This document shows positions 5,008-55,402 of a stretch of DNA of 64,000 nucleotides, in pieces. Position numbers and translations under genes: made by a program. Where the stretch lies: NCBI GenBank assembly GCA_903813345.2, contig CAIIXF020000007.1, positions 2,115,730 to 2,179,729 of the forward strand. The letters are read 5' to 3'. The notes below the pieces were generated by a model. The model ran no database searches. It had not been told where the DNA came from and saw only the letters and a program-made list of their open reading frames with translations. This DNA is from Owenia fusiformis. Lineage: Eukaryota; Annelida; Polychaeta; Sabellida; Oweniidae. Position 1 is the first letter of the stretch. The number at the start of each line of letters is the position of its first letter.

Positions 5008-8000
5008 ATGAAGATCTTCATCGTATTTGCGTTGATAGCCATTGTGCATGGTTGTCAGAAAAGTGGTGGTAAAGGAGACGCAGGACACAAGGGGGATGGT
5101 GACAAGAAAGACAGTTATGAAGACAAGAAAGACAGTTATGAAGACAAGGGCGATGGATATGGAGACAAGGACGGTATGGATGGCAAGGATGGAATGGATG
5201 ACATGGGTATGAAAGACATCGACTGGGACAATGAAGAAGCTGTTAAGAAGATGATTGCTGGTATGCCTCCAAAGGGAATGCCAATGAAGTTATGGATGTA
5301 CCACAAGCGCAAGATTATGGAATGGGATTCCGACAATCTCATGAAGAAAAAAGGCAAAACTCCCCGAGAAGTGTTTGAGAAGAAAATGTACATGTAAGTA
5401 ATAACTTTCTGATTGCTTCGAACAATCATATAATGAAAATATATGTGCATTGATAATTGAAATGACACACAGACCACAGCAAAATATGAATGGAACTCAT
5501 TGATTATGTTCTAATTCTTGTTATCATTTATTTTCCAGGAAGAAAAACACTATTCTGTTTGGTCTGACTGAGAATCCATACAGTTTTATGAAGAGGTAGA
5601 TGTTTGATATATATTGGTCATCGTGTACAAAATAAGACTATTGTATTGTTAAAAATATGTTTATAGCTTGTATTTCCTAATAAAAACATACAAATGCGAT
5701 ATGATAAAGTTCAAATGAGAAAATGAATTTCTCAAACGAGAAGATTTTTGAACACAGCCATGAGTAGTATTTTATTTTACAAAGTTTATCTGAATAATAT
5801 GTTTTCCTACATACAGGGACTTTAATAAAAAGGCAGGTGTATCAGGTTTCATCCCTTCGCTCCTCCACAAGACATGCAATTATTGCGGACTCAAATGCGC
5901 AGGCGTGTACGTCAAAGATAGTAAAAAATGCTTTGATGAAACAGACCTTTCTAGCGAAGGTAAGATGAATGTTCAGGAAAACGTTGATCTTTCTGTATTT
6001 AAATTAAGTGGCATGGTTACTTATTTTAAAATATTTTGTTAGGTGTCGTTCTTTACCATATGTAGAGCACTTTTACACATAGATAGGCATGCATTACCAC
6101 ATTATGACCAATCAGAACACAATACTATGTAAGTGTGAAATGCTGATGCATCGCAGCATGTATGCCATGCTACTATCATAACATTAAATGGAGGCTAAAG
6201 GCAAAATGTTATATTTAGTTATACATGTACAAACTTATCATTACAGGGTTGAACAACAAGCAGTTCCACGCATGTCCCGGGGTACCACACACCATGCAAA
6301 CCGCAGCTGCCTTTAATGTCTCGATACCCATGTTAAAGACCTCTAAATCGCAGTTCTACATTAGACCAACCACTACCGACATAACTAGCATGGCTGACTT
6401 GAATGGGAAAAAGATCGGTACGATTTACAACTTTACTTTCACTTTTGTCTCACGGTGACTTTGTTTTCTGTACATGAGAAATCAGTTTATAACACCTTGG
6501 TGATTGCGAAAAACACTCAAACTTTACCGATGTAATATTATACGTACATTTAGATATTATTCCGTGTCATGTTGTTTTAAATGTAAATCTAACTGCAAGC
6601 CCCTGTGACTCCTCACCCACAACTTGACTACACAGGTATGAAAACATCTCACACAGGAGAGTCGTGTGAGGGGGGGGGGGGGCAAAGGCTTGTAGCTAGA
6701 TATTTTAGATATGTTAATGTGAGTAATGGATTCAATCCTGACTCCACATTGAATGGCCTGTTTATGCTTCTAATTGAATTGCTTCCTTCAATTACATTAA
6801 AGGGGCAACAAAGACTGTAGAGAGAAAATTCGAAAATTTTTATTTTTTCTGAGCTATCAGATCAATATTTAGCTTAACATTTTCTTTGACATACCTATTT
6901 TTTAAAATTATGGATAAACTATCAATATCAGCATTAAGAAGTGTAAATTCAGTTCAAAAATTATATAAAGGGATTCCCTCTTCTAGATTTTTATAATTCA
7001 CCACGTTTCAAGAGGAATATCAGCTGAAATAATGTTCATCCAGCCAACACGTGATAAAACGATGTATTTTATTTCTCCGCGTATGATCTGCATTATGTAT
7101 TTCTAAAAGTTGACACATATACCATACGTTTATACACAACATAAATGATTACAATGCCCTTTGTTTTAGGTGTTATGGGAAAGGGATATATGAATGAGGA
7201 TTGTCTCCGTCGCATGATGGCTAAAGCTTTGGCTGCTGATGTCGAAATAACTGCAGAAATAATCGCCGCTGACACGAAAGAGGAAGTAGTTAAGCTTCTT
7301 ACTGATAGAAATGTAAGGCTTTAATTTTTACAATTCGGCTTGGCAATTTATTGTTACAACTTACAGGGTGGAAACAACGGAATGCAAATCATAAATGAAT
7401 TAAAAAGATTATTCAAAAGGAAATAAGGATAATATGATGTACCTTGTTTAAGGTTATTCCATTCCCAACTTAATAACATAGTAAAGCAGGGGTTAGTTTT
7501 ATTTGGTACATTGCAGCAAAATATGTGAACCCATTTGTTCTAAAATTTGATTGATTGGTCGATCTTTTGTCTGTTTAGTAGACTGAATGCAATGATATGC
7601 TTTGTCATACGAGTGTATCTACCTGTATTATTAAAATCAATTTAAATGATTGTTAATTTGTCTAAATTTAAACATGTTTGTACAAATCCAGCTTTGCAAG
7701 TGAAAGTAAAAGATATCATCGTCAATAATGAGAAATACCGACACTTATTTATCACTAAACTGTGCAAATTAATGTATTAAACATTTCCAAATAGGTGGAA
7801 GTCGTGCTTGGACCAGAGATTTCCGACGCTCTTCCCGCAGATTTGAAAACGTCTCTCGAAGGCCTGAGGCGTATGGGCGAACCCTTCCAATGCGCGCATG
7901 GTAGAGGTCTTCTTCACCGAAAAGACGTCGATTTCTCCGTCTTTACAATGTGTTATTACTACGCTGTCATCAAGAACGGTCTCTACGACGAGATGGCCGA

Positions 8001-8380
8001 AAAATATGGTAGGTTACTTAAAAGATTTAGCCTTTTGCCAAACTATGATCTATATCAAACACCGTATTGAGGTTACTGTAGTATTTCTTCGACTGTACAT
8101 TATTACTCAAATCGATGGCACAAAAGGTACAATACAACAATTTGTCGTTACTGGTTTATGACTGATTTCATTTTTTGTCATATATACAAGTAGTTATTTT
8201 TATATAGATATTCAACGTAAATAAGGTGCTCGTTTATTCGTTAAAATAAACCTTTATTATACTTATGAAAATCAAACATAAACGTTAAAGTAACCATTTA
8301 ATATTTTATTTTCAGGCATTCCCGAAATGGCTCGCGTCAATTACAAGAAGTATATGGAAAGTGGAGGAATGGAAATGTAA
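5008..8380 (+). CDS. Gene A: secreted periplasmic-binding-protein-like protein, 7 exons, 392 aa
   Basis: Exons 5008-5393, 5539-5595, 5817-5959, 6247-6417, 7170-7312, 7795-8008 and 8316-8380 join in frame through GT-AG introns. Residues 1-15 (MKIFIVFALIAIVHG) look like a signal peptide, with Cys16 starting the mature chain. Residues 17-70 are a Gly/Asp/Lys-rich stretch with tandem KDSYED repeats that is absent from genes B and C. The domain from about residue 130 to 380 resembles SBP_bac_3: a GFIPSL segment, Cys pairs (CNYC, KC, KKC), TSMADLNGKKIGVMGKG in lobe 2 and LLHRKD...GLYDEMAEKYG at the end. The expected T-x-x-R ligand motif reads TMQT here (Thr214), so the ligand arginine is missing. 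Seen: exon structure and motifs. Known: this fold binds small solutes. Inferred: an extracellular binding protein with a changed or lost ligand. Confidence 0.85.
6668..6680 (+). repeat. Poly-G run in gene A intron 4
   Basis: An uninterrupted G run in the intron between exons 4 and 5. It is a simple repeat and could form a G-rich structure in the pre-mRNA. Confidence 0.6.
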
Positions 8381-10868: not shown

Positions 10869-11935
10869 CCGAGGTTCTATGACCAATAAAAGCCAACGAG
10901 GCATTTCGTTTATTCTCACAATGGAGGATCGGGAATGTAATATTTTTGAAAAGAGTTCACTTCTATATATAGCGTTATAGGTATTTGTCCCTAAACAAGT
11001 TCCAACAGTCCCACTTATTTACAGACCCCTTTAAAATCACTTAGCATATTATATAGATTTTGGCTTTGCTTTTGTTAGCAATTGAATGATTCAAATAGTT
11101 TTTGCACCAATAAGCTTCTGCCCTAAATACATTTGCATATTGGCTTAAATTCCTCTAACACCAGCCTGTAATAATTTGCACATGTCATGACAAAGTTATT
11201 TTACTTACGAAACACGGAGGGGTCAACCATTGCTTGTCACAATTTAAGAAATTATTGCGTTCATTATAATATTTTTTTTATTCAAAATATTTATTCTAAT
11301 TTTATATATTTTAATGGAAGTATAGCCCATTAAGCCTGTTCCCGTTATATAACATGCCTTTAAGAACCCATGCAAAGTTTGAAAATATGGTTTTATCATT
11401 CACTTTTTATTGTTCATTCTTTTGAACGTAATGTAAAAGATGTATAAAAAATGCTTTTCAAAAAGAGCTTTTTATTTCTCAAATATTCAAATTTCCCGCC
11501 AGTTTTCTCATAAAAGTTGATTTTTCAATCATTAAATGTCAACTATATAGCATAAAAACATTATCTTTATGACATCATTGTGAAGACTGAAATAAGGACA
11601 CGTTATTCCTCGAAGGAAATGTCATATCTAATGTGTCCCTTAATTTCCCTTAATGCTAAATTTTCTAAATACGAAAACTGGCTTGTCAAGATATAGAATT
11701 GGTATTTATGTCTAATAACACAGCAATGATTCAGAATGTACATTTAGCTCGTCAAATAGAAGCTATTCCTACACCACACCGAAAAGTTGTACTAAGGAAA
11801 CACTTTAATGGTTATTCTAGAGCACAGTAACACACGTATATTAACATTAATTCGTTTATTGATAGTCATTAGATTAGAATTTGATCAGAAAATCTGCATC
11901 ATATGTTTTTCGTTTTCAAACAGTATTTTACAACG

Positions 11936-12090
11936 ATCTAAATGCAACCCCAACATTCTCATATGTTACATCCTTTACTTATTTAACCCATTGGGTCAAC
12001 AAATCGATGTGGTACTTAATGCATCCTCGCCCGTGAGAGTGCGCAGACCTCACGTGAAACGCAATTAGGCAACACAACGGTCCGACCATC
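11936..12090 (+). promoter_or_regulatory. Gene B promoter, near-identical to gene C promoter
   Basis: About 150 bp upstream of the start codon match 43955-44106 with only a 3-bp indel and very few substitutions. Elements include TATTTAA at 11980-11986 as a TATA-like box and CACGTG at 12051-12056. Sequence further upstream is much more diverged, so this tract is constrained or gene-converted. Confidence 0.55.
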
Positions 12091-15000
12091 ATGATGAAAC
12101 TTGTACTCGCCTTCGCCTTGATGGCGATTGCCCACGCCTGTATTCGATCCGAGGAACCAGGCCCGGAAAAACCAAAATATGAACCGACAGATGAGGAAAT
12201 CTATATGGAGATCCAGAAGGGAATGAAAAGACCAATGGGCTTTGATGAACGTTCTTGGGGTATCATGCAGAAGAAGATTAGAGCATGGGATTACGATGGA
12301 TGGTTGGAAAAAAGTGGAATGATGGAGAAAGATTTCTTCATGCAAAAAGCCGCGATGTGAGTATGATCTGAAGTTTTTCCATGTTCATGCAAATAGATCC
12401 GATCTTGCAATGTGAGAGGTCACCTACACATCCTTCTATCAAATCATATCACAAGATAGAGGCCGTTATCCATTTTCAAGTAAACATTTCAGATGTTCAG
12501 GATGTCCCCCTACCTCTTGTTCACGAGCTTCTATAATTTTAAACGGTATAAAGTCTCCACTATTTAAAGTATGCAGATAACCGATGTTTTTCTTTAGTTG
12601 TATAATCAAAATGCTATTCTAATGGAAATTGTTTTGTTCAGATTAAAATAGACAACCACTTTTTATATTCGCACAGTTCTTAGAGTACAGGGTTGACTTT
12701 AAAATAGGGGCAGGATACCGACAATCGACTCAAACGGTTTATCACACTTTAGCCTCGATCAGATTTGCCCTACGGCGGTCGTACGGTGGCCGCGGGGCGC
12801 ACAAATGCATAAATCATACATCTAACTGCTTATCCCTATATTCAATGTTGCATATTTCTCTCGATTTGGGGAAGCTACGACCACCGAACAGTTGCCATAC
12901 ATCACATGTGACCGAAGCATTGGCTTAAAGTGTAATTTCCAGTATTTAGTTAGATGATTGAGTATAGAGTATCTCATGGTAGCTAACCATAATGTATATA
13001 TGAATTCTTAATCGAAAGTAGTTTTAACAAATTACTGTGACATTTTCCTGTTCATCCTTATATATCCCTTGATTTTCATTATATTTCAGACAAGGCGGCA
13101 ATTATCCAACTCAATTTGCATTCATGGACTTTGCAGATAATCCGTATTGGAAAAACTTTTCCTATGTGTGAGTACTAGTATTATATTAATTATATCAGAT
13201 ATTAAAACGCAATCCATCCAGCCTAACTTTAGAGCAGTCCCAGTTCCAGATGTAAGGACCCAAATGGGCATATGGGATATTATCAAAATACAGATATGAT
13301 CGTCAAAAAACAACAACAAATTATATGTCTTTTTTCACGAAATGTTATATAGTCTGTATACATGGTATACCACTCGTATATAGTGGAGTATTAATATGAT
13401 TGTCATTTATATATGTTGTAATGCTATTGATGAATATATATGGCTGAAGCTTATAGATTATATCTTAAAATAACCAAGAGAACTTGTTTACTGGCCACAA
13501 AAAGAAATAATTTATAATGAGCATATGATAATCAACCACATTATTGTGTTTTTATAGATCATCAATTTGAGTTTTTAATTTTAGAAATCCAAGAACCCAA
13601 ATGCTTGAAGGTTTTCTACCAGCTATTACTCAGAAAGCATGTGACTTTTGTGGAGCAACATGTGGCATGAGGAACATTGGAATGAGATCCGATCGATGCT
13701 TCGACGAGATGGAACTCACTGGCTCAGGTAAGATCTAGATATACTATACTATCTAAACTCAAATTGGGTCCGCGAGTTATACTGAAATGCGACGACAAAC
13801 CATATAACGACGCGCGTTGTACCAATACCCAGTGTGCCAAAAATTATAATATTTGAAGTTATATAAAAATTGTAATTGAAGAGTGGAGATAAACCTAACA
13901 GAGCAACAAGGGTACTTACTTTGAGCATTTTCAATAAACGAAAAGTATAATTTATTTACTCTCTGGCATTATTTATTTGTTTTATTCTTATGCCACACAG
14001 CATTGTTACCTTAACTTATTTTCGCTTTTCACATGTCGATGACTAAATGCAATAGCTCATCAAAAGTTTCAGGGGATAATAATCCCCGAGACGGGATATT
14101 AAGGGATAATAGAATACATTACCGATCGCAGAAGAATACATTTCTACACAATGTGCGGGGATATAACGATATTCGGTGTATACCATTTCGGTTCATTGAC
14201 TTTCGGAAAAAAGCTCTACGGTACAAGGCATTTTAGTATAATGCAGTTATCCCACATGATTCACTCTTATAATATCACCATGATAACCATAGTTTGATTT
14301 GTGTGCCCTGAAATGACGAAAAGATGATTGCTAAAGGGGGTTTAGGGTTATATGCTAGTTGAGATTAGGTTTTGTATTGACATTGTCATGCCTAGTAATA
14401 GTTGGCCTATTCATGGACCTATATATAGAGGCCCATGGCCTATTTAATTTAAGAATCAACGAATCGTGCAGATTCCGTTTGATAAATGCTTCGAATTTCA
14501 CTTCAAAATTGATGTTACAAAATTTTGAGTTTCTTGATGAATTTGATGTTGCCATGGCTATGTTATTGTCGATTAATCAAACACATGATCATGAATCACT
14601 CTCCAGAATTGAAGCCAATATTACTAATAAGTAAATATCAAAATATTGTCGCTAGTTTACACAAAGGATAACCCTTGCTGGTAAGAAAAGAAAATATGAA
14701 TAAACAGGTATTTGGAAATCGGATTACAACTCAGTAAAGACCATTTCAAAACAAGTGAATTTTAAGTGTATGTGCACTCTTGCCATTTATGCCAACTCTT
14801 TGTGTCTGTATAAACAAGAGTCATTGAACGAAAACTATTTTTTTGCAAAGTCATTGCTTGGCCTTGGTTTATTTGGAGAAGTAAAAAGGGTTAAGTATTT
14901 TTGTACTTACTACATTATTACTCACTTTTTGGTTGCTCTATAAAATAATAAGAATGTAGTATTCTCCATATATTTCATGTAAAGTGATGATTACAAAAAC

Positions 15001-18000
15001 GGTTCGTTTAGTGTAAAGATAAAAGCTAAGCTTCGGGCTCTTGGTCAAACTATGATAGTAGCGGCCTGTCTTTATTTTCTCATATCTATACTTCGCTCTA
15101 AAATGAATTGGTTCAACTATTTGATTAATATAAAACATTTGGCTTAATTTTTCCTCTGAAGGGGAGTCTAGCACAGGGTAAGATGACAAAATAGCTTCAT
15201 TTTTGTCATCCTTCGAGATCAAGCTTCGCTGAGCTCAGAATAACTTGAAATACGCTTTGACCAAGTACTCCTCATCGGACAATCGTTAATTCTAATGGGT
15301 TTCATTTCTCAAAGAAGTACAAGAGTTCGGCCATTTAGTTGATTAATGAGTTCTTGACTCTGGTCAGCAAAGTTTTTTTTGTTCAAGTTAACAAATCATA
15401 TAGTATACTATGCATCGAAAACGCAATGCAGCAGTATAATTCGACTTTTTAAAGCTTAGTAATATTTTATCTTTCAAATGTTATGTTTCCGTCTGTTTTC
15501 ATGCATTCGGTGTATTAAACTATTAAACTATTATTCTAACCCACAGGTTTGGACAACAAAGAATTTGCAGCCTGTGCAGGATATGGGTCCACCCCAAAGC
15601 GCGCCAATGTCTACAATTTCAGTGCTCCACTTTCAATGGCACCAATGAAACAACTTTGGATCAGGAAAACTACCACGGATATCACTTCTGAAGCTGATGT
15701 CAATGGAAGGAAAATCGGTGAGGAAGTTGTCGGTTTTTATATCAATAAACTGAACCAATTGTGTTCTCAACTTTCCATCTCTATACTAGTAAACAACAAA
15801 GTCATATCAACGTCGAGGTGTAATCACTAGTATTGTTTTGTAAAAAGGATGTGTCCGGATATATGCCCTTTTGGTCCCTGAGTAAAATGTATGTGAAATA
15901 TGGTTTTTATTACTGTCCTAGTTATATTTGACAAGTATATTTACTTTTTCATGAGTTTTGATGCATAATCAGCCCCCTGTTGAGAGTCAGAATAAGTAGC
16001 CTAACAAAACAAAAAATAGTCATAATCATAAAAAAAACACCAATGGCAACATGTAAGACATACAAAGAAGAAATAACTTAAGACCCATGAAGAATTAAAA
16101 AGAAAATCATATTTTTGAAATATATTTAAGGATTAAATTTTTTTTCAAATTTTTGAATTTCCCGCCAGTTTAATTTGAAGGGGGAAAACAAGATGGCTGC
16201 CATTTGATGTAAGAAATATCAGAAAAAGTTGCTTCACTTTTAGTTTTCACAATGAGCACAGTTTTCCGGTTTAGGTTTTATGCCTGATTCTGACTCTTCA
16301 TCACCAGGGTCATGTATAGGGATTATAAAATTGAAACCAAGATGTTGTGCTCAGCATGAATTTTACTGAAATATGTGTAACTTCCCCAACACAATTGAAG
16401 TCTCAAAACTGGATGCTCAGTAACTTTGATTGACTATAATCCCTTGATTACCCAGATAAACACCAATTCACTTATTCAGAAATACCATTCAATGTCTATA
16501 CAATCAAAGTAAGCAATGTTACGGAGGATATGTTTCAAACTTTTTGTATAAATAATTCTTTTAATATTTGCCATTGATTTTTTCAATTCTGACAAAGTGA
16601 TATGCACTGTCTTTGATGCCAATATTCTTCATCAATTGTGATACAAATTGATATTTTTGTAATCTCAGAAGAAGGATAAGATATTGAAGTTTAATAATAT
16701 GTGTGATTGAGTTGGTTTTTCAGACATTAAAATTTTTAATATTTTCTAAGTCGATACCCAGACTCATTCCCAGACTCATCCTTTGAATTTGATATACTAG
16801 TTTCTCAAACGTAACCTTCATGTTACGTTGTTACGTAAATGTCAAGCTATCATATGTTTCCAGCTATACCTGCACCAGAAGCACAATATGGACAGTATGA
16901 CGCAGCTTGTCTACAGCGCGTCTGGCCTGACGTTGTTCCAGGGGAGATCGTTGAAACAGCTGCTGATGATGTGGGACTTATCACACAGCTTGTGAACAAA
17001 GAGGTAACTGCAGCAGAACAAATATGTTAAAGATCTTAAAATTTATATCAGAATACTAACATGTTTCCTATCTCTGTAGCTGCCATGACCCTTGCATGAT
17101 ACAGCACTGAGTCAAATTAATTAGGTCAAACAAGCAAGATAAAAATCTGATAAACATTCTTGACGATGTCTGGAGGAACAGTCATAAATGGCAGCGCAGT
17201 TCCCTGTTAAAGAGAGAATGACATATGTATTAAACTACTCTTACTATTGTCATCTTTATGTTGCCCTAAATCATAAAATATCAAATATGTCTTAAAAGTA
17301 TTACCTCACTCCTTACACAGGCTGACATTGCTATGGGACCCGTTATTCCAATGGATGCAGATGCTGAAACACAAGAGGCCATAAAGGATATCCAACGATT
17401 TGGAGAACCATTCCACTGCGTGAAAGATGGAATATACCAGATGATGCACCGTAAGGATGAGGACATGAGGTTGTTCAGCCTGTGTTACTGGTATGGAGTT
17501 GTCAGGACTGGTGAATACAAAAGAATGTGCGAGATGTACGGTACGTGAGCATGTTATGATCAGTTTCTATATTTGAATTCCTTATTCTTTTCGCTAGATT
17601 GATCTACAGTGTTAAAGTGGGAGGGTACAGCCTTTTTCAAAACGTTACTACGACTGACAATATGACATATAGCGGTATAACGCAACTCGACATATTGTCG
17701 CTTTGTTTATTTGATAGTTGATTTGAACCAGCCTTATCTGAAACTCATCCGAATTACATGTATAATTCTCCGATGTTCTCGATATTTGATCATGTTAATG
17801 AGTTTGTGAAAACTGTGTGTAAATGAGATTCACTGACGAAGTATATCCCTGGAAGTAATCGAATGTATAGTTATATTTTCCAAAAAGTTACATGTGGCTT
17901 GTTATCATTCTAAAGTTGTGAACAATATATACAGACAATTGATTCATTATAGCTTTCAAACATTCTAATTGTGGCTTGTTTTATTACAGGAGGCATGGTG

Positions 18001-18090
18001 GAAGAAATGTGTATTGATTTCGAAGGTTGGATGCGTGAAATGATGATGGACCCAAACCCACCTATGAAGGATGGCATGGGTGATATGTAA
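12091..18090 (+). CDS. Gene B: secreted periplasmic-binding-protein-like protein, 7 exons, 372 aa
   Basis: Exons 12091-12356, 13090-13167, 13585-13727, 15547-15717, 16864-17003, 17321-17540 and 17990-18090 join in frame. Residues 1-16 (MMKLVLAFALMAIAHA) form a signal peptide with Cys17 next. Residues 20-89 are acidic/basic with Trp and Met. From about residue 95 the chain follows an SBP_bac_3-type fold: NPYWKNFSYV, EGFLPAI (123-129), Cys134/137/141/153, FAACAGYGSTPKRANVYNFS (169-188) with Arg181 in the ligand-binding position, EADVNGRKI opening lobe 2, LVNKEADIAMGP, and MMHRKDEDMRLF then TGEYKRMCEMYG closing the domain. The tail is Met/Pro-rich (DPNPPMKDGMGDM). Exons 3 and 4 have the same lengths and phases as in gene A. 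An amino-acid-like ligand would fit the retained Arg but is inference. A glutamate-receptor-derived origin is the alternative to bacterial transfer. Confidence 0.88.
15845..16820. other. Extra 1 kb in gene B intron 4
   Basis: Gene C intron 4 is only 160 bp (53077-53236), while gene B intron 4 is 1146 bp. The extra middle part is AT-rich, non-coding and shows no clear terminal repeats. It holds TTTCCCGCCAGTTT, which also occurs near 11494. Confidence 0.45.
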
Positions 18091-30900: not shown

Positions 30901-30959
30901 AGAATCAGTCACCGTGCCTTGCTCTGCTCGCCACAAGGTAGTCTTGCCTCTGGGCCTTG

Positions 30960-31400: not shown

Positions 31401-31485
31401 TAAAGTAGTCTCGGCTCTATCCCTCGAGTTCCCCAGTAACATACAGGTCTAAGACCCTGTTATAAAAGGACAAGAAGCAACTTAT

Positions 31486-31976: not shown

Positions 31977-32049
31977 ACAATGGTTCAGCAATCTGTGCCA
32001 GAATGATGGGTCTTAAATCTTGAACTACCATTAAACATCACTTCCAAAA

Positions 32050-32170
32050 CAATACCAGCATAAAATGGAGTATCTCCTTTTATGCTCAGCATAAAATGGG
32101 ACATCACTTTTTATGCCAGCATAAAATGGGATATCACTTTTTATGCCGGGCATAAAAAGTGATATCCAAA
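32050..32170. repeat. Three tandem palindromic units
   Basis: About three copies of a unit of roughly 33 bp reading AGCATAAAATGGGATATCAC then TTTTTATGCC. Each is partly self-complementary (GGCATAAAAAGTGATATCC). Confidence 0.7.
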
Positions 32171-32319
32171 AATTACTTTTTTTAAAAATCAACAAATCCG
32201 GGTATTTGTTACAGTCCATTTTTATATAATCCGCCGTTGTATGTTACTGGGGAACACAAGGCCCAGAGGCAAGACTACCTTGTGGCGAGCAGAGCAAGGC
32301 ACGGTGACTGATTCTTATA

Positions 32320-33780: not shown

Positions 33781-34179
33781 TTGTAGGTCTTAGGTCTTAG
33801 TTTTGTAGACACCCCACCAAAATACCTAGTTCAAAATCTAGGTCAAATTCATAGTTTTTTTTATTTTGCGATTCTGACACTACACTTCAATGATATTCTC
33901 CGAAATTTTGTAAACTTGTAGCAAAGAGTGTGCTAATAATGTTAACATTTTGCCGTCAATAAGTTTTTTGACCCACTTTTGAGATATGGTGTCTGAAATG
34001 TAGGTCAAAATAAAAAGTTCTCCAATTTTAAAGTATGAGTTATGAATTAGGGGTAGAATTTCCTCAGGAATCCGGATCTGAAATTAAAATTGCAATCCGA
34101 CCCCCGGTTTAGATTCTACGCCATTTTGAAGTTTGAAATTCGCACTTGCCAGTATTCACGATGCAGATTGATCAAATAT

Positions 34180-34420
34180 ACTGCATACTGCATACCCTAC
34201 TTTACCTCTCTACCTACTCAGCTACTTATTTGACTACTTACTCAATTACTTAATTAGTTATTACTTACTTAGCAACTTACTCAGCTACTAACTCAGGTAC
34301 CTACTCAGCTACCTACTCAGCTTTTTACTCAGTTACTTACTCAGCTACTTACTCAACTACTACTAAGGTACTTACTCAGCTTATTACTCAGTTACTTACT
34401 CAGCTCTTTACTGATCTATC
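34180..34420 (+). repeat. ACTCAGCTACTT simple repeat
   Basis: Irregular tandem copies of TACTTACTCAGC. A second copy of this tract lies at 37030-37245 in the next satellite unit. Confidence 0.8.
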
Positions 34421-34478
34421 TAGGTCAAATAAATCTGGAGTCTTAAATTGAACTTGTTCAATTTCACAAATCTAGTTA

Positions 34479-43441: not shown

Positions 43442-43954
43442 GATCTCTCAATATTCTAATTTTACAAAGGAAAGTTTGGTTAATCTAAAAAATATCTTGT
43501 TAATGAAATAAAAGGTTTACTTTAATTTTTATCTATTTTTGTTTTTTTGTCATAGTTTTTTGAATTATTTTTGTTAAATGAACCAAAATTTCCTTTGTAT
43601 TTACAATATTGAGAGGTATAAGAAAATGTTGTATATGCTGTTTTGTTCCATCAAGGTTGGGAAAAATATTGTATTTCATTCTCGAGAAAGGTAGAAAGGT
43701 AGAAAGGAACAAAAATAATTGCACTAAGATCAAAAAGTGTTAACAAAAACAGTTATAAAAAATATATATAAATAATTTTCGCATCATTTTGTTGACAATC
43801 AGTGACCATTACATAAATAAACTTTTTTTTTTACAGAATGCTATCAATAATTGGTAAAAAGAAAAAGCAATGTTGAATTCAGTTCGCCATATCGATACCA
43901 ATCCTTTAATCATAAAATCTGCATCATATTTTAAACAGTTTTAACAGCGATCTA

Positions 43955-44106
43955 ATTACAACCCCAACATTCTCATATGTTACATCCTTTACTTATTTAA
44001 CCAATATTGGGTCAACAAATCGATGTGGTACTTAATGCATCCTCGCCCGTGAGAGTGCGCAGACCCCACGTGAAACGCAATTAGGCAACACAACGGTCCG
44101 ACCATC
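43955..44106 (+). promoter_or_regulatory. Gene C promoter
   Basis: Near-identical to the gene B promoter. TATTTAA at 43994-44000, CACGTG at 44067-44072, start codon at 44107. The LINE fragment ends about 500 bp upstream, leaving this core intact. Confidence 0.55.
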
Positions 44107-47100
44107 ATGATGAAACTTGTACTCGCCTTCGCCTTGATGGCGATTGCCCACGCTTGTATTCGATCCGAGGAACCAGGCCCGGAAAAACCAAAATATGAAC
44201 CGACAGATGAGGAAATCTATATGGAGATCCAGAAGGGAATGAAAAGACCAATGGGCTTTGATGAACGTTCTTGGGGTATCATGCAGAAGAAGATTAGAGC
44301 ATGGGATTACGATGGATTTTTGGAACTGCTTGGGTTTGAGGAGAAAGATTTTTGCGTGCAAAAAACCGCGGTGTGAGTACTGGAGTATGACCTGGAGTAC
44401 ACTCCCCTCCAAACGTTTGGCAACCTTAGCTCCCTCATTGAACTACGTCTTAAAGCCTCTTTATGTTTGACTTTTTATTTACATAACCTGCGAGGAAAAT
44501 ACTTATCGTATTTATGGAAATGTAACTTGATTTCATTTTCTAAGGTTGCCAACTTATGGAGGGGAGTGTAGGTCGAAAATTGATGATACATCTGATGAAT
44601 TTTTGAAAATCGAAATTCCCATGTAAACCAATGGGAAATGGTTGGTTTGCCTCAAGTCATGTGACAGAATATTCATCCATCCGAGTTCTTGCAAAAATAG
44701 TTAGGTGGCCATGGTCAATTGAATTTGCTAATTTTATTTAATAAAATTGATACGTTCAGGTTTAAAAATGTTATAGGTCTTCAAAGTCAAAATTGCTTAA
44801 AACTCCTCCCATTGAAATAACACAGAAGACGAAAAATGATTTTCAAAAATTACTTTGAAGCTCTGTAACTTTAATATTCATAAAGTAAATTGAACACTTA
44901 GCGTACAAAAAAGTTAGACAATTCAATTTTCTACATAAAAAATATCTTTTGGTGAATCTTTTACTGGATAGATATCCTGAAAACAGATTTGCCCCGAACC
45001 CACCATTTCCCATTGGTTTACATTGGAATGACGATTTTCATAGAATTCATTGTAATTGAGGAAAAATTGGGAAAAATCACATTTCCATCAATATTATAAG
45101 TATCTTCCTCACGAATTATGTAAATAAAAGAGGAGACGCGAAAATCTTTCCTTATAAGGTCAAAATATTTCCCATGATGCAGTTCGCGGAGGAACAAATT
45201 TATACTTCCTTGTTTTCCCTCATAGGTTTAACATGGGGATTTTCACACCTATTTTTCAAACGATATATTCGTTCATATTCCCGTACAAGAGTACAGAAAA
45301 AATTATTAGAAAAGATTGATCTCTTATTAGTCTTAATATAACAGCTATTTTTTCATTGTATTGATTCATAGCGTGGTGAGAACGATGATTGAAAAGTGAG
45401 AAAATATTCCGGAAAAGAAGGTCACGTGATCAGTTGACTAGTCGCCATTTTGGAAAAAACAATTCCATTCGACTTTCAATACTTTCCTGCCAATCTTACC
45501 GCACTAAAAACTGCAACATCGATGCAACAACTGAATAAAAGTATTCATCTTCAAATTACATTTTAGCGTTACGTTGAAAACCCACAAACAACTGAGCAGT
45601 AGACCAAAGAAGACGCATCGCTATTATCTAGGTCAATCTGTTCAGTGGTCCGAAAGCAAATCTATAATACTCGTTTCCGAATTTGTTGGTCATTGTACAA
45701 TCTTTTATTGATTAAACTCGGTATACTGACAATTAAAGCAATGACAACGAAGAATACTTCCGATGGTGTCATTGTTTTATTTAGCGTGCGGGTGTAAAAA
45801 CAAAATTGCGTAATTAGTTTGATTTAGAGCTTTCGGGTCACGCAAATAGCTACGAGAAATGCATAGTGGGAAAATATTGACCAATCAAATGTTGTCCTTT
45901 TTGATTGCTTTTTCAGTACATATTTGCGAACGTTCTGATTCAAAGAGCGAACCGCGAAAGGGAGAATTGGTTTCTGAGATAGGGCTCTATTTGCGTTATT
46001 TGTTGATCACCCCCTGTATGTTGCGTTTTTATGGAATAGATTATATACTTTTGTGATTTTTAGAAAATAGTCATGACAAGGAATGATATAAGCCATTTTT
46101 CTAAAATTGAGACACTTTTTGATTGCTTAGCTACTAGAATAGTATATCTGATTCTCAATAGCTCATTGTAATCTTCTATATTCACGGTGTCCAACCCAAA
46201 CGCTCTTACATGCCGGGGCGTTTCAGAAACGTTGGAAACGTTGCAGAGCGAAATGAAATGGTAGCAAATGAAGATCCCACTATGACCGTAAGTATTGTTT
46301 CACTCGTTTCTCTTACATATCATACGTTATGTTGACATATTATGTACCATTCGATGAACAAAACCCGAAGCAAAGATCTTACTTATTCAACTTTTGCTGG
46401 TGTCTGTTATTTGCTTGATCAAAGCTCCGTAGTGTAGATCGAACGAATCTGATGTTGACGAATTGACCACAAATTACGAATTAATCATGTATTTATATGA
46501 AAATGTCAACCAAAGAGTTTGGAATGGAATATATCTCTCAAAAACGTGTTATTGAGAATAAGGCAGATTGTAACTTCCCAAACTGGTGGTGCTACACGTG
46601 CAACAAGCCGAGTTGAAGCCTACATTAGATGATGATATGTCTACATGTACGCTAAAACATAAAAATATTGACAAAAAAACAAAAAGTTTATATATGATTT
46701 AATCTTTCTTCTTTTGATGCCAGGGATACAATAGATCTTTTTTTCTCTTCCTGAATAGGAAAGTCAAGCTAATTACTCAGATGTGAGTAGGTAGTTACCA
46801 GTTTCGCCACCAGGTGGCTGATTCGGGGGAATTAACATGGCAGGGTATTACGAAATTCCCCTAAACTTGAATATGCATTAGTTTTAGTGGTTCACTTTTC
46901 ATATTACCCTTATGTATCTGATCGTTATACAGATAAAAATATGTCCAGTTAAAGAAAATATTATCTGCCCAACACAAGAAAAGATATTTCACTTTTTGTG
47001 GTTTTACAACATGGGGTCTATTGGGAATCTCCCCGACCTAGAAGTCACATTTTCAAAGAAAATTAAATTTTTAAAGTTGATAAACTCTTTTCAAAACCAG

Positions 47101-50100
47101 ATTTTTAAATGTAATTTTACATGTAGATTCCAAATATAATATCAGTTTGACTGAATTGTGTATTTTTAATGACGTAAATCAAGATTATTTCTACTCTCAT
47201 CTGGGATATTCCTAAGCATATTTAGACTAAGATTAGTACTGCAGCGTTTCCAGTTCATTGTGTTAACCAGATCGCAGCGTTTCTTGAATATGAGAATGTC
47301 ATCATTTTTAAGACTGGATTTTCGGTCATTAAATAACAATTACGATAATGTATGGTGCGTTGAAACTTCGGAATTTGACCAAAATATACTCTGGTGCTCT
47401 AATCTTCACTCAACTAATCACATGCCTGACAAATACGTTTATGAATTTTGATAAGTACTGCTTCGTACAGCTCTTCCTAATTGTTTCAAACGTAAACAGC
47501 CAGCCAAGTACAAAATGAATATCACACCCATCGAATGGTATACTCGAAATAAGTAACACGTACCCATCATTCCCACCCGTCATTTTTCCTACTCCGGAGC
47601 GTTTCTTTGTTTAGTTTCAGTAATGAAACGCTCAGTCGTGCATGTAAGAGCGTTTGCGTTGGACACCGTGATATTGGGCTTATACATTTTCCAAGTCTAA
47701 CTAGTACAAGCCCTTGTGTTATAGATAAGGGTCCACGGTCTTAAGCAATACTAGCACTCTTAAAAAGTATAACTTGGATTTCCTTATATTGAGAAATTGT
47801 ACTACTCATTTTAAGTCAAAAATTACTTAAATAATCTTGAACTACTGAATAATTTTTAAGTAATTTTTAAGTAATTCATTTATGGTGAATTTACTAATGC
47901 AAGGAGACAAATTGAAATACTTACTGTAGTAATTGTAATACTCATTTACATAAATAAGCAATTAAAAAACTCAAAATGACAATATAAGTAAAACCTAAGT
48001 AAAATGAAGTAAAACTAAGTATTTATCTTTAAGTAATTTTTATACTCGGGAAATATTTGGGAAATACTCAAGTAATTCATTTTTAAGAGTGAGCCTTCCC
48101 TCTTGGCCTACATTTATAGTGTATCCTATTGTATACCTGACCATATTATATTATTACGTTGACATTTTTATGTTCATCATTATATATCCCTTGATTTTCA
48201 TTATATTTCAGACGAGGTGGCAATTATGCCATTCAATTCGCATTCCTGGACTTTGCAGGTAATCCGTATCAGAACTTTTCTTATGTGTGAGTACTATATT
48301 AATTATATCAGATGTTAAAATGTTTATGCAATCTCTCGGGCCTTTGCTAAAGAAAGTCCTAGTTCCAGATATTAGGCCACATATGTTCATGTTGGATATG
48401 ATCAAATCACTGATCATTCGCAAGAATGAAAAGAGTTATCTTTTACTAAATTTATATAGTCTGTACGAGTATAGTCAATGGAGTTTATACATTATAGTCA
48501 TTCGAGTGTTTATGTTAAATGTATATATCTGTTTTAATTAATTCTGTTTTGATACACGTGTAGATGATATTTAAAAAATAATCAAGAAAAGTTATATACT
48601 GACCACAGACAGAAAAATGAGCAACTACATAGCTAGGAAAACCGGTCTCATCACAAAAAGTAAAAATGTGCTACAGAGCCAAGAATGTGCCCTAGATAAA
48701 GAGGAAAATGTGCTAAATTTAAATCTGACTTTTTGTCTGTATCTGCAGGGAAAAAATGTTAAGACATAAGCTATGGCTCATTTGAAAGGTCTCTTTGTGC
48801 TTTTTAAGATAAACGAAAATATTGAAAATGACTGATATGACCCCTTTTCCCATGGCCTGGCTCAAATATTGACCATTTGATAATCAAGCACAAAAGTGAT
48901 TTTGTAGATCATCCATATTTCTTATTTTAGAAATCCAAGAACCCAAATGCTTGAAGGTTTTCTACCAGATATTACTCAGAAAGCATGTGACTTTTGTGGA
49001 GCAACATGTGGCATGAGGAATATTGGAATGAGACCCGATCGATGCTTCGACGAGATGGAACTCACTGGTTCAGGTAATAATACATTTGTTGTAAATGCTA
49101 CCTAAACCTAGTATTCAATGGTGTCCACTTGATTATAAAGACGTTACGGGTCTATATCCAAATGGAAAAACACTAATATAAGGGCTTTTAGGTATAATGC
49201 AGTTATCCCCCATAATTCACTCAAATACTGTCACCATGTTAACAATACCATGATTTGTGTGCCCAGTTTTGTGTGCCCAGTTTTGACGTAAAGATGATTA
49301 CTAGTTCGTTAAAAGGATTCGACTGTTATATGCTCTCTTTAAAACCCATGGTCTACATTATCAAGCCTTGTTAACGAATCTTAACTCCGTTTGATGAATG
49401 CCTCGAATTTGACATAATTCTGAAGTTCTCAATGCAAAATTGATGATGCAAAATTTTCAAAAGTCAGTAAGTTATCTTGATTAAGATTGTGCCATGGCTA
49501 TGGCATTGTTACTGTCGATTAATCAAACACATGATCATGAATCACTCTCTAGAATCGAACCCAACATTATTATGAAGTCAATATCAAAATATTGTCGCTA
49601 GTTTACACAAAGGATAGCCCTTGGTAAGAAAAGAAAATGTGAATAAACAGGTATTTGGAAATCGGATTACAAATCAGTAAATACCATTTCATAACAAGTG
49701 CATTTTAAGTGTATGTGAACCCTTGCCATTTGGACCAAACTCCTCGTGTTCATGTAACCGCCAGACAAACGATAATAAGTGAACGAAAAATATATAAAAA
49801 GAGCCAGTAGACATTGTTGTTCTAAATTAGAGTTTGGTGCACACTCTATTACAAACCAGGGCATGTGAAGAAATAAATTTTGGTCATTAAATTCATTTCA
49901 TAACAAACTCTTTTAGGTGGTACTTGTTTTTATAATGAACATTCATGATTACTTGTATATTATATTATATTATATTATATTATTACCACCTTGCCGGACC
50001 AGTTCTAGTGGTTTTTAGTGCTAGTTAGAAGGCATTCATTTTACTTTATCAACCTGAGCAATATGTGACGTCATAGTGGCGGCTAATATAGTCGGTCAAG

Positions 50101-53100
50101 ATTCAAGCATTTAACGACCGGGAAAATCAAGGGAAAGATCAATACCCGGTGATTTCAGCGGGAAGCGGCGTTTCGTTCAGTGGATGAGCTGCGCGCGCAC
50201 GCATAAATGTGATTATCCAATATATTTAGAGGAGGGCTATTTGAAATAGTTTTGGTCTCAGGCGCGACCCAGGGCTGTTGTCTTAAGGACATTTCGTTGA
50301 AAATGAGCCATTCGGCTGATAATTGGTAATAGTTTGCGATCTTATAATGTATAACTGTTACTCAGACACATATTTTGACACGATTCTGTTGGATATAAGC
50401 TTTGAACCGAGAGATATTCACGATTGATATGCACATTTTTGATTGTGCCATTGCTTTTCCATTGCACAATCCATGTATTGATAGAAGTAACATTAATAAT
50501 GCAGATTGTTTACCTTCAATACATGGCAGACACTACATATCGGTCTATTAATATTAAAATTTTAGAATGATCAATCAGGCAATGGTCCAAATCAAGTTAT
50601 AACATTATATGATATTCAGCAAGAAGTCCGGTAGAAATACAGAATATTTAAACATCAAAGCTGAAAGTTAAAAGCTAATCTGTCAATTTTCTGTCTGCAA
50701 AAGAGCGTTTACATTTGACACAAAAACAGACTGAGGCTTTGAAATCTAGGATTCCCAAGGAAAATATGACGTCATACTAATTAGCATAAGGATTTCCCTA
50801 TTGGTCTGGGTCGAGCCTTGTTCGAAAACACAATCCATAAATACATGCTAATTTCTAAGGAGATAGGAAGTGTATAACGTGTTTATCGATTTTGTTTAAA
50901 GATTTAATCAATTATCAAATTGTTTAAGTGGATAAAGTGGGCACACTTGCTTCAATTCATAGCGTAATCGACGGATAGAAACTGACCGAATTCCCGATAT
51001 CCTACCCCGTATTACTGTAGGCTATTAAGCACAGTGACCTACAGAGGGCGCTATCACAAACAAGTACTGCGCGAACCGATAAATTCCCGGGCATTGTAAC
51101 GCCCTTGGGAAAATTAGATATCGTTCAGTGCGTAAGATTTTCTTGCTGTTTCAGTCCTGGTTATTATTAACGGTGGTAATAATACTAATAACGTCATTTC
51201 TGCGGGCAATATAAGTGAAATATTGGACCTTAGGCCTTCAGCCCTCGGTCCAATATTTCACAATATTGCTCTCCGAAATGACGTTATTGCACTATTAAAT
51301 CGTATTATATTCTATTACATCACGTAATATCATATCATACTACACCCCTTCCATATGATCACAGCCGTGGCACTGACTACCACGGAATATTACTGATCAT
51401 TTCAGTAAAAATGATGACCTTATCCCTCAGAAATGAAGATTGTGTTCCACAGATAGTTTTGCGTGCCATGCGACATCGCCCAGTCTCTAGGAAATTGATT
51501 TTATTTTCTAGTTACTAATCGTATAATTGTGGATAGAGTGGTTAGCGACCCAACCTCCTTTGTTTACATTCGCAAAACTGTGAAAAAACTAGAAAAGTTG
51601 TCAAGATATTTTAAAAACTCAATAAATGGAACCGATTTCACTTGTAAGGTTCTACATGAAATGAGCAGATCAATGCGGTTCGTAATATCTTCAAATGAGC
51701 TATCTCTCCAGTTGAAGACATTCAATCAAAGACCACGTGTTACACTGGAGTGATCACGCATAACGTATTGAGCTCACTCGATTATCATTCCGGTGTAACA
51801 CGTGGTGTTTGATTGAATGTCTTCAACCACTTCATACCATTGCAGGTTATACCTTCCCAATATACACGTACAACTCTCCTCCATAAGTTTGGCAACCTTA
51901 GCTCCCCATTGAACTACGTGTTAAAGCCTCTGTACGTTTGAATTTTTATTTACTTAACTGGCGATGAAATGACTTATAATATTGATGGAAACGTAACTTG
52001 ACTTTATTTCCAATACCCCCAAATTTTCTCAATTTTTTCCTCAATTACAATATGTCGAAAACTTATGATAAATTTGATGAATTTTTGAAAATCGTCATTC
52101 CCATGGAATCCAATTGGAAATTGGGGGTTCGGGGCAAATTAAAAATCAGGATATCTTTTCAGTAAAAGATTCAGCAAAAAATATTTTTATATAAAAAATT
52201 GAATTGTCCAACTTTTATGTACACTAAGTGTTTAGTTTATTTCATGAATACTAAAGTTACAGCGCTTCAAAGTCATTTTTGAAAATAATTTTTCGCCTCC
52301 TGTGTTATTTCAATGGGAGAGGTATTTTGAAAAACAATTTTGACTTTAAAGCCCTATAACTTTGTTGAACCTGAAGAAACTTATCAATTTTTTATTAAAT
52401 AAAGTTAGCAAATTCAAATGCCTGCCTAACTCGTATTTTTTGCAAGGACCCGGATGGATGGATATTCTGTCATATGACTTGCGGCAAACCTACCACTTTC
52501 CATTGGTTAACATGGGAATGTCGATTTTCAAAAATTCATCAAATTTATCATCAATTTTCGACTTATTGTAATTGAGGGAAAAATTTTAGAAAATTTGGAG
52601 GTATTGGAAATAAAGTCAAATTACGTTTCCATCAATAGCATAAGTATTTTCAGCGAAGGTTAAGTAAATAAAAATTCAAAGGTAAAGAGGCTTTAACACG
52701 TAGTTCAATAGGGGAGCTAAGGTTGCCAAACTTATGGAGGGGAGTACCATATAACCAGGTCTTTGTTTTAACATATACAGCAGTTTGATAAGATTTTATG
52801 GCTTCGTAATGATTTATCTCTCAAAATGTTATGTTTCCGATTTCATCACATATCAAGATTGAGATGTTAAGCTTAAATACTTATTTAAATGTTTCTAACC
52901 CACAGGTTTGGACAACAAAGAATTTGCAGCCTGTGTAGGATATGGGTCCACCCCAAAGCGAGCCAATGTCTACAACTTCTCTGCTGCACTTACGATTGCA
53001 CCAATGAAACAGCTTTGGATCAGGAAAACTACCACGAATATCACTTCTGAAGCTGATGTCAATGGAAAGAAGATCGGTAAGGAAATGGTAACTTTTTTCA

Positions 53101-55402
53101 CAGAGTCAAACAATTGTTTTTCGATATATAACAAATATAAAATCATACCAACCTAGAATTTGAAATCACTATTTTTTTGAAAGACTTAAGTTTGTCTATG
53201 CTGTTATATTAATGGCGTGCTATCATATGTTTCTAGCTATACCTGGACCATTAACACAATATGGACAGTATGACGCAGCTTGTCTACAGCGCGTCTGGCC
53301 TGATGTTGTCCCAGGGGAGATCATTGAAACAGCTGCTGATGATATAGAACTTATAACGCAGCTTGTGAACAAAGAGGTAACTGCAGCAGAACAAATATGT
53401 TAAAATCTTAAAATTTATATCAGAATACTATAAGTTTCCTATCTCTACCTGTCCCTTGTTTGATGCAGCGCTAAGTCACACTAAAAACAGCAACTTTACG
53501 GAGTAGCAAATCCCACCGAACTAAACATGTTTTGATAAATAGCGGCCATCTTCAAAATTATCGAAGATTACGTTTTTTACGAAAAATGCCGGCCATTAGG
53601 AAAACAGCTGTCGTCTTTAAAGTTTCTTCTCAAGCAAAGCTTCTTTGTCCCATGACATCAGTACGTAGAATATGAACCAAATCCGTCCACTGGTATTTGA
53701 GTTATCAAAGATTACGTTTTTCACCAAAAATGGTGGTCATTATGAAATTCAGTGGCCATCTTGAAAATGTCTTCTTCTTTGAGTTGTCAAAGTTTACGTT
53801 ATTTTAGGAACAATTGCGGCCATTTTGAAATTAAACCGCCATCTAAAGCCTTTTCTAGGCGTTACGTGTAGAAGACAGATTCAATAAAAGACAAGTCTCG
53901 ATTTGGAAAAAGAAGGAATATAGAAATATCACCCAAATTAAATTATAAATATTCAAAAGAGGACATTTAAATCTACAATATGTAAACCTATCAAAATTGC
54001 CCAAAGCAGGCGTAACATGCAGTGCAGTAGACTGATGAAATTCGTTCTCAACATCGAGACTAGTCTTTTGAACCAAATCTGTCAACTAGTCTTTTCAATT
54101 CAATTCAATTCAAAATTCCATCATACAATATTTTATATATAACATGAAATAGACACCCAAAAGGGGCGTATACATTCCATCGGTTTTAATTTTAGATACG
54201 TAGTCGTAGATCAAAAGCTAAATGAACCAAACTGAAAGAGAAAGGTGCAAGCATAAATTATCATTGGTATTACTTGATAAGACAATTTTTATCAGTTTTT
54301 CGAATTCTTTCACGTGCTTTGCCTTTTTAAAATTCATAGCCAGTGAGTGATATAGGATTGCTCCTATAATCGCAATTGATTTTCGACCAGTTTCAGGTTT
54401 AACCCTTTTGATTGTTAAATTATATTTGTATCTACTGGTATCATGGGTTTGATGTCTGTCTTCTCTTGAAAAAATGTTTGAAATTACGAAATGGGAAATC
54501 TGCAGATTCTGTAAAAGTTTTCTGAACAAAAGTGAGTGTTTGCAATTTATTAATGTCAAAAATATTTTATATTTGATTTATTTATATTGAGTAGCCATAT
54601 TGGAAATTTCTTTTCAACCAGAGGTCCTTTTTCAATGAGGCACTGACTTTAAAATTTGATTCCAATCTGTCAACCGGTATTTGAGTTATTGCCCGGACAG
54701 ACGAACGAACGCACGAACCGACGGGCGGATGTCTTCTTTATATCCTACTCTTATTACGTTCGGTGGGGTAATTAAGTCCAATATGCAAGATTACTATTCA
54801 TATATTTGGTGATGTCGGAAGAATAGTCAAATATGGCAGCACAGTCCCCTGTTGTAGAGAGAATAACAAGTATGACCTATCTCCTTACACAGGCTGACAT
54901 TGCTATGGGACCCGTGATTCCAATGGATGCTGATGCTGAAACACAAGAGGCCATAAAGGATATCCAACGATTTGGAGAACCATTCCACTGCGTGAAAGAT
55001 GGAGTATTCCAGATGATGCACCGTAAGGATGAGGATATGAGATTGTTCAATATGTGCTACTGGTATGGGGTTGTCAGGACTGGTGAATACAAAAAAATGT
55101 GCGAAAAGTACGGTACGTGTACATGTTAAGTTATAATATTATCATTATTGGTATGGTTTATTCAGTTTCTTGGATGGCTATTTAGTGTTAAAATGGGACA
55201 ATACAGCCGTTATTTAAACGTTACTGTTACTGCGAATGAACATATGCATTATTTTTAATTATATTCAAAGATTCTAATCGTGGCTTGTTTTATTACAGGA
55301 GGCTTGGTGAAAGAATTGTGTATTGATTTCGAAGCTTGGATACGTGAAATGAATATGGATCCGAACCCACCTATGCAAGATGGTATGATGGGTGATATGT
55401 AA
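44107..55402 (+). CDS. Gene C: secreted periplasmic-binding-protein-like protein, 7 exons, 372 aa
   Basis: Exons 44107-44372, 48212-48286, 48931-49073, 52906-53076, 53237-53376, 54893-55112 and 55299-55402 join in frame. Total coding length equals gene B because exon 2 is one codon shorter and exon 7 one codon longer. The signal peptide and first 70 residues are the same as gene B; the end of exon 1 differs sharply (FLELLGFEEKDFCVQKTAV, with an added Cys). The binding domain keeps TPKRANVYNFS with the ligand arginine, but the usual FS-x-P proline is Ala (FSAAL). Lobe 2 opens EADVNGKKI and the domain closes HRKDEDMRLFNMCYWYG then TGEYKKMCEKYG. All splice sites are GT-AG and no exon carries a stop, so the gene looks functional despite its large, transposon-filled introns. 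Confidence 0.87.
44398..45131. mobile_element. Foldback family F2, copy 1 (gene C intron 1)
   Basis: Starts TACACTCCCCTCCAAACGTT. A complementary GGTTGCCAACTTATGGAGGG lies at 44544-44563, so 44398-44570 can fold. The rest (44571-45131) matches the interior of 51873-52745 in opposite orientation, for example GATGAATTTTTGAAAATCG. A rearranged copy. Confidence 0.65.
46183..47670. mobile_element. 1.49-kb DNA transposon with CACGGTG ends and 5-bp duplication
   Basis: A 31-bp terminal inverted repeat with one mismatch starts CACGGTGTCCAACCCAAACG. ATATT is duplicated at 46178-46182 and 47671-47675. CAC...GTG ends plus 5-bp duplications are characteristic of the Transib/RAG group, but the heptamer CACGGTG differs from the usual CACWRTG at one position and no transposase was recognised inside. 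Subterminal GCGTTTC motifs recur. It lies in gene C intron 1 and is absent from gene B. Confidence 0.72.
49955..49984 (+). repeat. (TATAT)n microsatellite in gene C intron 3
   Basis: About six copies of a 5-bp TATAT-type unit. Confidence 0.85.
49985..51186. other. Gene C intron 3 insert, unclassified
   Basis: Slightly GC-richer than surrounding intron and absent from gene B intron 3. No coding motif or terminal repeat was identified. Confidence 0.4.
51187..51290. repeat. 100-bp hairpin in gene C intron 3
   Basis: Arms AATAACGTCATTTC...GTGAAATATTGGACC and the matching GGTCCAATATTTCAC...GAAATGACGTTATT surround a short loop. MITE-like. Confidence 0.7.
51712..51830. repeat. 120-bp inverted repeat in gene C intron 3
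   Basis: GTTGAAGACATTCAATCAAA at the left and TTTGATTGAATGTCTTCAAC at the right, with inner CACGTGTTACAC/GTGTAACACGTG. The open frame 51529-51753 runs into the left arm and is probably spurious. Confidence 0.75.
51873..52745. mobile_element. Foldback family F2, copy 2 (gene C intron 3)
   Basis: Outer arms CTCCATAAGTTTGGCAACCT and its complement (ending TTATGGAGGGGAGT) extend inward through TTAAAGCCTCT and GGAAACGTAA for about 170 bp. Inner sequence around GATGAATTTTTGAAAATCG is also inverted. About 870 bp, non-coding. Confidence 0.78.
53477..54780 (+). repeat. Dispersed invertebrate repeat split by MITE M1 (gene C intron 5)
   Basis: Recurring phrases such as GGCCATCTT, GATTACGTTTTTCACCAAAA, CCGTCCACTGGTATTTGAGT and GTATTTGAGTTATTGCCCGG, ending in an ACGAACGAACGCACGAACCG run, mark a diverged interspersed repeat. 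M1 lies inside it. No coding. Confidence 0.5.
53887..54069. mobile_element. MITE family M1, copy 2
   Basis: Shares AGACAAGTCTCGATTTGG, AATATCACCCAAATTAAATT and the right end GAGACTAGTCTTTT with the other copies. Confidence 0.7.

Follow-up and report, generated by a model that had tools for sequence, protein, structure and literature searches.

In animals, the fold of the bacterial solute-binding proteins (SBPs) is known mainly from inside receptors, which carry a channel between the two halves of their ligand-binding domain. Automatic database names of the SBP kind exist for some invertebrate proteins. For the bacterial protein LAO, Arg77 is described as binding the carboxyl group of the ligand, and Ser72 and Asp161 as locking its amine; NocT of Agrobacterium, without the equivalents of Ser72 and Asp161, is described in the same account as not binding arginine (PMC4192606). 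Among annelids, the luciferase of the fireworm Odontosyllis is described as a secreted protein of 329 amino acids with 10 conserved cysteines, encoded in eight exons and accompanied by paralogues, and the descriptions drawn on here report it as without known homologues (PMC6109096, PMC6736977, PMC6082529). In literature searches, which covered mostly top-ranked papers, we found no description of a secreted SBP-like family such as the one presented below; one further literature search found no paper joining "solute-binding protein family 3" with "worm", and neither "solute-binding" nor "periplasmic" occurs in the main text of PMC13342648.

The window (the whole stretch of 64,000 nucleotides that was analysed) is located on contig C7 of the 498-Mb assembly of Owenia fusiformis. 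On C6 of this assembly, Eryth_link_C, a domain that marks annelids, has three matches above the cut-off, a result with a weak control, since the 14 control genomes are prokaryotic. A preliminary description of this DNA had placed three seven-exon genes, A, B and C, between positions 5008 and 55402, and these models were borne out. With splicing at canonical sites, each gene has seven exons, GT-AG introns and a complete open frame, and the intron phases are identical in the three genes (2,2,1,1,0,1). Position 5008 is the ATG of gene A and position 55402 the final base of the stop codon of gene C; the encoded proteins have lengths of 392 (A), 371 (B) and 371 (C) amino acids. The genes and their exons are as follows.

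5008..8380, + strand: gene A, SBP-like, signal-like start, carboxylate-binding Arg lost; 7 exons, 392 aa
5008..5393, + strand: A exon 1, signal-like start, Cys16, Asp/Lys/Gly-rich linker; splice model
5539..5595, + strand: A exon 2; splice model
5817..5959, + strand: A exon 3, GF-P motif and four-Cys block; splice model, paralogue matches
6247..6417, + strand: A exon 4, lobe-1 strand, DLNGKKIG; splice model, paralogue matches
7170..7312, + strand: A exon 5, lobe 2; splice model, paralogue matches
7795..8008, + strand: A exon 6, HRKD and C-terminal helices; splice model, paralogue matches
8316..8380, + strand: A exon 7 and stop; splice model
12094..18090, + strand: gene B, SBP-like, signal-like start; 7 exons, 371 aa; SBP_bac_3 E 0.00099, below cut-off
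12094..12356, + strand: B exon 1, signal-like start, Cys16, linker; splice model
13090..13167, + strand: B exon 2; splice model
13585..13727, + strand: B exon 3; splice model
15547..15717, + strand: B exon 4, TPKR motif; splice model
16864..17003, + strand: B exon 5; splice model
17321..17540, + strand: B exon 6, DIAMGP, HRKD; splice model
17990..18090, + strand: B exon 7 and stop; splice model
44110..55402, + strand: gene C, near-duplicate of B (89%); 7 exons, 371 aa; SBP_bac_3 E 0.00057, below cut-off
44110..44372, + strand: C exon 1, signal-like start, Cys16, linker; splice model
48212..48286, + strand: C exon 2; splice model
48931..49073, + strand: C exon 3; splice model
52906..53076, + strand: C exon 4, TPKR motif; splice model
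53237..53376, + strand: C exon 5; splice model
54893..55112, + strand: C exon 6, DIAMGP, HRKD; splice model
55299..55402, + strand: C exon 7 and stop; splice model

From their sequences, B and C are near-duplicates of one another and A is distant: amino-acid identity is 89% between B and C and 35% between A and B. The divergence between B and C amounts to a dN of 0.061 and a dS of 0.162 (dN/dS 0.37). With this ratio, the introns, the open frames and the location on a chromosome-size contig, we judged pseudogenes or contamination unlikely. The series of motifs reported in the preliminary description held in part. All three proteins contain, in this order, G-F-x-P-x-I/L, D-V/L-N-G-K/R-K-I, HRKD, G-x-Y and YG, but TPKRANVYNFS is found in B and C only, A having TMQTAAAFNVS with the arginine lost, and likewise the D-I-A-M strand of B and C reads VEVVLGP in A.

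Several other features were noted in the window. The DNA of B and C matches in nine blocks, most of all in exon 1 and its upstream DNA (11880-12363 against 43905-44379, 92% alike, as if recently homogenised); the remaining eight blocks are 74-90% alike. Tandem arrays (28567-38676) occupy a large part of the DNA that separates B from C: a 476-base unit is present in three stretches, with about 2.6, 3.2 and 2.3 copies, and a 42-base unit has 21 and 35 copies in opposite orientations. These arrays are flanked by an inverted repeat of 503 bases (27047-27549 and 41898-42400; 97% complementary, 14 kb apart). A further array, at 2682-3511, has 13 copies of a 64-base unit with 97% matches. Near the right end of the window there are immunoglobulin-domain exons on the minus strand, at 61507-61956 (V-set, 7.5e-6) and at 63393-63785 (Ig_2, 6e-4, below the cut-off).

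We searched the assembly with A, B and two paralogue queries. Copies of exon 4 were found at 26 places, a lower bound: three in the window, 22 in the paralogue loci that were fetched and one more (L013). They are distributed over six chromosome-size contigs (C1, C2, C3, C6, C7 and C10). An additional exon 6 is located on the 50-kb contig C524 (L023), and there is a weak match on C10 at 3.85 Mb. The genes A, B and C are thus members of a large and apparently undescribed O. fusiformis family. The preliminary description had called it a tandem family; A, B and C are indeed neighbours, but the term is too narrow, since two further copies (L006) are located about 20-27 kb to the left of the window on the opposite strand and others are found on five other contigs.

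The paralogue loci that were fetched contain 22 copies of exon 4, 17 of exon 3 and 16 of exon 6, with splice sites at like places of the alignment, as have the exon-5 blocks; the search imposed the exon phases of the paralogues, so that shared phases in these loci indicate no more than the presence of splice sites at corresponding positions of the alignment. Some exon-3 ends of paralogues were set by hand, and the end of exon 6 in L004 is doubtful. We assembled 15 domain rows, and 14 of these were used in alignment A2, the residue counts and the tree; L006a is partial. L009, L011, L013, L016-L021, L023 and the second L006 copy were not assembled and stand outside the residue counts. The identity of family members to L005 ranges from 29 to 73%. 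At 30.57-30.65 Mb of C2, five neighbouring paralogues (L017-L020) have a very similar exon 4, and their exon 6 is seemingly split differently. Positive selection in this cluster was considered and set aside, the changes being too few: replacement and silent changes in exon 4 number 11/1 between L017 and L018, 4/0 between L018 and L019, and 2/4 between L019 and L020.

The preliminary description had assigned the three proteins to SBP_bac_3 and the type 2 periplasmic-binding fold. Tested singly against Pfam, the window proteins are borderline: B and C score 19.3 and 20.1 bits against SBP_bac_3 (cut-off 26.4; E 0.00099 and 0.00057), and A alone has no SBP_bac_3 match, only sub-threshold matches to DUF3834, NMT1 and NMT1_3. 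A profile built from A, B and C only had no significant match in the PDB (best 0.12, mixed with talins). With the paralogues included, the assignment is supported. SBP_bac_3 (PF00497) is matched by 12 of the 14 members of alignment A2 at E up to 1 (best 5.9e-9), and the first member reaches 27.9 bits, above the cut-off of 26.4. NCBIfam models TIGR01728 (best 1.4e-6) and TIGR01096 (best 1.3e-4) are each matched by five of the 14, with bits, shown for one member, far under the cut-offs of both models.

The PDB search with the 14-member profile returned 64 sequences at E up to 1. The first of these is AncQR (8.2e-9), and many are of the ArgT/HisJ/ArtJ type, among them ArtJ (2.3e-6), HisJ (1.3e-5) and forms of LAO (6e-6 to 9e-5). 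An hhalign comparison of the family with six SBPs of E. coli K-12 gave an E value of 1.1e-12 and a probability of 97.8 over 205 columns. In a tblastn search of 72,556 plasmid records, L005 matched annotated ABC substrate-binding proteins at 8e-7 (over 52% of its length) and 2e-5 (over 99%); the search gave 134 records at E up to 10, and among the 20 matches listed, nine are annotated as substrate-binding and 11 fall at places without a listed gene. Gene C, searched against the same 72,556 records, matched five, the best (E 0.9) annotated as substrate-binding. The occurrence of the same exon-4 block at 23 further places in the genome, together with the E value of 8.2e-9 to bacterial proteins, points to more than a chance resemblance. 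On these profile comparisons, the homology of the family to bacterial solute-binding proteins of family 3 is secure with 14 members. When the SBP_bac_3 model was searched against the whole genome, none of the 25 matches listed was at a family locus, and those inspected were of the receptor type; exon by exon, the domain appears too split or too diverged for this search to recover the family loci.

The proteins were described as secreted, soluble and rich in cysteine, and the sequences agree, as judged by hydropathy and by no anchor being seen. A, B and C begin with a hydrophobic, signal-like stretch ending in V-H-G or A-H-A, followed by Cys16, and contain nine, 11 and 12 cysteines in total, respectively. 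Candidate first exons with a signal-like stretch were recognised by eye from hydropathy in 11 loci (L001-L005, L007-L010, L012 and L015). A cysteine near the mature start is present in A, B, C and the candidates from L001-L005, L007-L010 and L015, and absent in that from L012. With cleavage placed by eye, this cysteine directly follows the signal-like stretch in A, B, C and the candidate starts of L002, L007, L008 and L010, and lies a few residues beyond it in L001, L003, L004, L005, L009 and L015. Because its position relative to the signal-like stretch varies, a frozen lipobox as the relic of a bacterial lipoprotein is not supported. The linkers before the domain are of low complexity and variable.

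Within the domain there are nine conserved cysteine positions (numbered by L005). Six of them, at residues 34, 41, 53, 72, 131 and 190, are cysteine in all 14 members. Residues 37 and 211 are cysteine in 12 of 14 and both alanine in the close relatives L007 and L012; this joint replacement hints at a disulfide. Residue 225 is cysteine in all members except L004 and A (12/14).

Residues equivalent to those of the bacterial binding site were mapped through the hhalign alignment and counted over the 14 rows. The equivalent of the carboxylate-binding Arg77 is arginine in 12 members, threonine in A and isoleucine in L002, and the residue three before it is threonine in 13. The equivalent of the amine-binding Asp161 is aspartate in none (proline in 13, glutamine in one). 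Serine occupies the place of Ser72 in one family member only (L010), and this place varies among nine bacterial proteins, too. The lobe-2 loop differs from that of amino-acid binders and between subfamilies: it reads FR-x-(F/Y)-W-(F/Y)-(M/T)-DK in L002, L004, L005, L007, L008, L012 and L014, and otherwise in the other seven, including A, B and C. Because none of the 14 members has the amine-binding aspartate, we file the family as a putative variant of the SBP fold and not as an amino-acid-binding protein. In the absence of an Asp161 equivalent, a free alpha-amine would not be held as it is in amino-acid-binding proteins, and we infer a carboxylate without a free alpha-amine as the ligand, a class assignment that depends on a handful of positions in sequences aligned at about 20-34% identity. 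This prediction does not hold for A, which, having lost the arginine, probably binds something else or nothing.

We consider it probable that the family comprises secreted, soluble SBP homologues that bind a small molecule and act as carriers, scavengers or binders of chemical signals; the choice of these roles follows from the lack of a visible membrane anchor and of a known partner transporter. Soluble, disulfide-stabilised carriers of small carboxylates would be the most likely form. In such a protein, the signal-like start would be followed, usually, by the cysteine near the mature N-terminus, then by the variable linker and the binding domain. The conserved cysteines would probably lock the domain by disulfides outside the cell; the two lobes would close on a small molecule, whose carboxylate the retained arginine would hold. 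By analogy with NocT, the ligands may be N-substituted amino acids (opines), or they may be plain carboxylates, and the proteins may act in mucus, in the tube or in body fluid. If so, worms might use these free-standing, apparently secreted and cysteine-rich versions of the fold to transport small molecules outside their cells or to signal chemically, and the design of sensors could naturally begin from them.

The fold may instead have been kept while ligand binding was lost, the proteins having a structural or adhesive function in the mucus or the tube. The missing Asp161 equivalent in 14 of 14 members and the lost arginine in A and L002 are consistent with this, as are the low-complexity, variable linkers. 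However, arginine is retained in 12 members and the threonine before it in 13, although identity to L005 is no more than 29-73%, a pattern suggestive of a maintained site; we regard the loss of binding as unlikely for the family.

As to origin, the preliminary description had offered acquisition from bacteria or excision from a receptor ancestor. Under the second, an ionotropic glutamate receptor would have lost its channel, and its ligand-binding domain, now soluble, would have given rise to the family. These receptor domains are homologous to the family domain, and the same genome contains three channel-less, receptor-type open frames (L029-L031), so that such excision seems to occur in the lineage. 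However, the family matches the domains of L029-L031 (alignment A4) with an E value of only 3.4e-4 and a probability of 38 over 147 columns, compared to 1.1e-12 for bacteria; A4 consists of only three rows and begins after the first third of the domain, so that its score is lowered, and part of the gap reflects profile depth. The full A4 alignment matches bacterial SBPs at 3.7e-13. Over like segments, with nine bacterial proteins (one row, ArtI, not cut to the common segment), the E values are 5.4e-5 for family against receptor type, 7.4e-12 for family against bacteria and 2.3e-11 for receptor type against bacteria. L041 carried no annotated gene and was left out. GluA2 has a low rank in the PDB search (0.009). 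At the site of the channel in receptors, exon 4 continues without interruption in A, B, C and the 22 copies, and the channel segment is absent; the lobe-2 cysteine of the family and that of L031 do not coincide in the alignment. The profile comparisons thus disfavour a receptor origin, which we rate as quite improbable.

The receptor-type domains are located on C3 and C1 (L029:1866-2504, + strand; L030:1364-2098, - strand; L031:1393-1998, - strand). They comprise the domain from the middle of lobe 1 onward, with the halves joined without a channel; in Pfam, both SBP_bac_3 and Lig_chan-Glu_bd are matched by all three. The tails of L029 and L030 are rich in histidine, and a terminal hydrophobic stretch resembling a GPI-anchor signal is present in L030 and L031.

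A tree of the 14 members, bacterial proteins and receptors recovered the family as one clade (100/100); it does not settle the place of this clade relative to receptors and bacteria, and long branches meet in it. In 74% of the bootstrap trees a branch separates the bacterial rows from the rest, which leaves room for a common animal stem. Transfer from bacteria is a possible origin. No close bacterial relative came up when 84,980 species of bacteria and archaea were scanned twice by pattern, a method whose reach is limited to close relatives. A more far-reaching reading is that an annelid lineage adopted a bacterial amino-acid-binding protein long ago, that the gene gained introns and the protein disulfides, and that duplication led to at least 26 genes for secreted binders of opines or other small carboxylates, an animal counterpart of the odorant-binding proteins of insects. 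We put this forward as a speculation with little likelihood; if true, the worm would have a repertoire of binders for chemical communication or for metabolite sequestration in mucus. The family would provide a test case for the flow of bacterial genes into animals.

Enzymes derived from periplasmic-binding proteins exist, and the PDB matches of the family profile include the ancestral AncCDT-1 and CDT-Anc1 (5t0w and 5tuj; E 0.0029 and 0.0023); the Odontosyllis luciferase, as described, also has an outline similar to that of the worm family. That the family is an enzyme on a binding-protein scaffold, such as a light-emitting enzyme or a dehydratase, and not a carrier is nevertheless very unlikely. 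The two printed luciferase peptides fit the family profile no better than random ones (p 0.73 and 0.98). Jointly, these two peptides, which are too short to rule out a similarity, gave a p of 0.97. A link to the luciferase is thus unsupported: a fit to exons 5 and 6 made by eye was undone when the position-specific profile placed both peptides elsewhere. A Polycirrus transcript is described as weakly similar to the Odontosyllis luciferase, with an uncharacterised Saccoglossus protein as its top match (PMC8476577).

Compared to known systems, the family shares with the Odontosyllis luciferase, as far as that protein is described, a secreted nature (predicted for the worm proteins), similar length, richness in cysteine, multiple exons and paralogous copies; however, the printed peptides, the two short stretches by which the two were compared, do not match the family profile. 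The ligand-binding domains of ionotropic glutamate receptors (PF10613) belong to the same fold superfamily and match weakly; in contrast to these, the family has no channel segment, and its profile match to receptors is far weaker than that to bacterial proteins. Most members resemble NocT, described as opine-binding, in that the carboxylate-binding arginine is kept and the amine-binding aspartate is absent; NocT shows no specific closeness to the family (0.024 in the PDB search), and opine binding by the worm proteins is a guess from residues. The place of the Gly-Ser-Thr of ArgT is taken by the aromatic loop in seven of the 14 members. With the bacterial proteins of SBP family 3 (ArgT/LAO, HisJ, ArtJ and GlnH), the family shares homology over the whole domain, with no membrane domain seen, and the GF, T-x-x-R and GK-x-(I/V)G motifs. 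Unlike the bacterial proteins, the worm family has no known transporter partner, its genes contain six introns, and its domain carries nine conserved cysteine positions.
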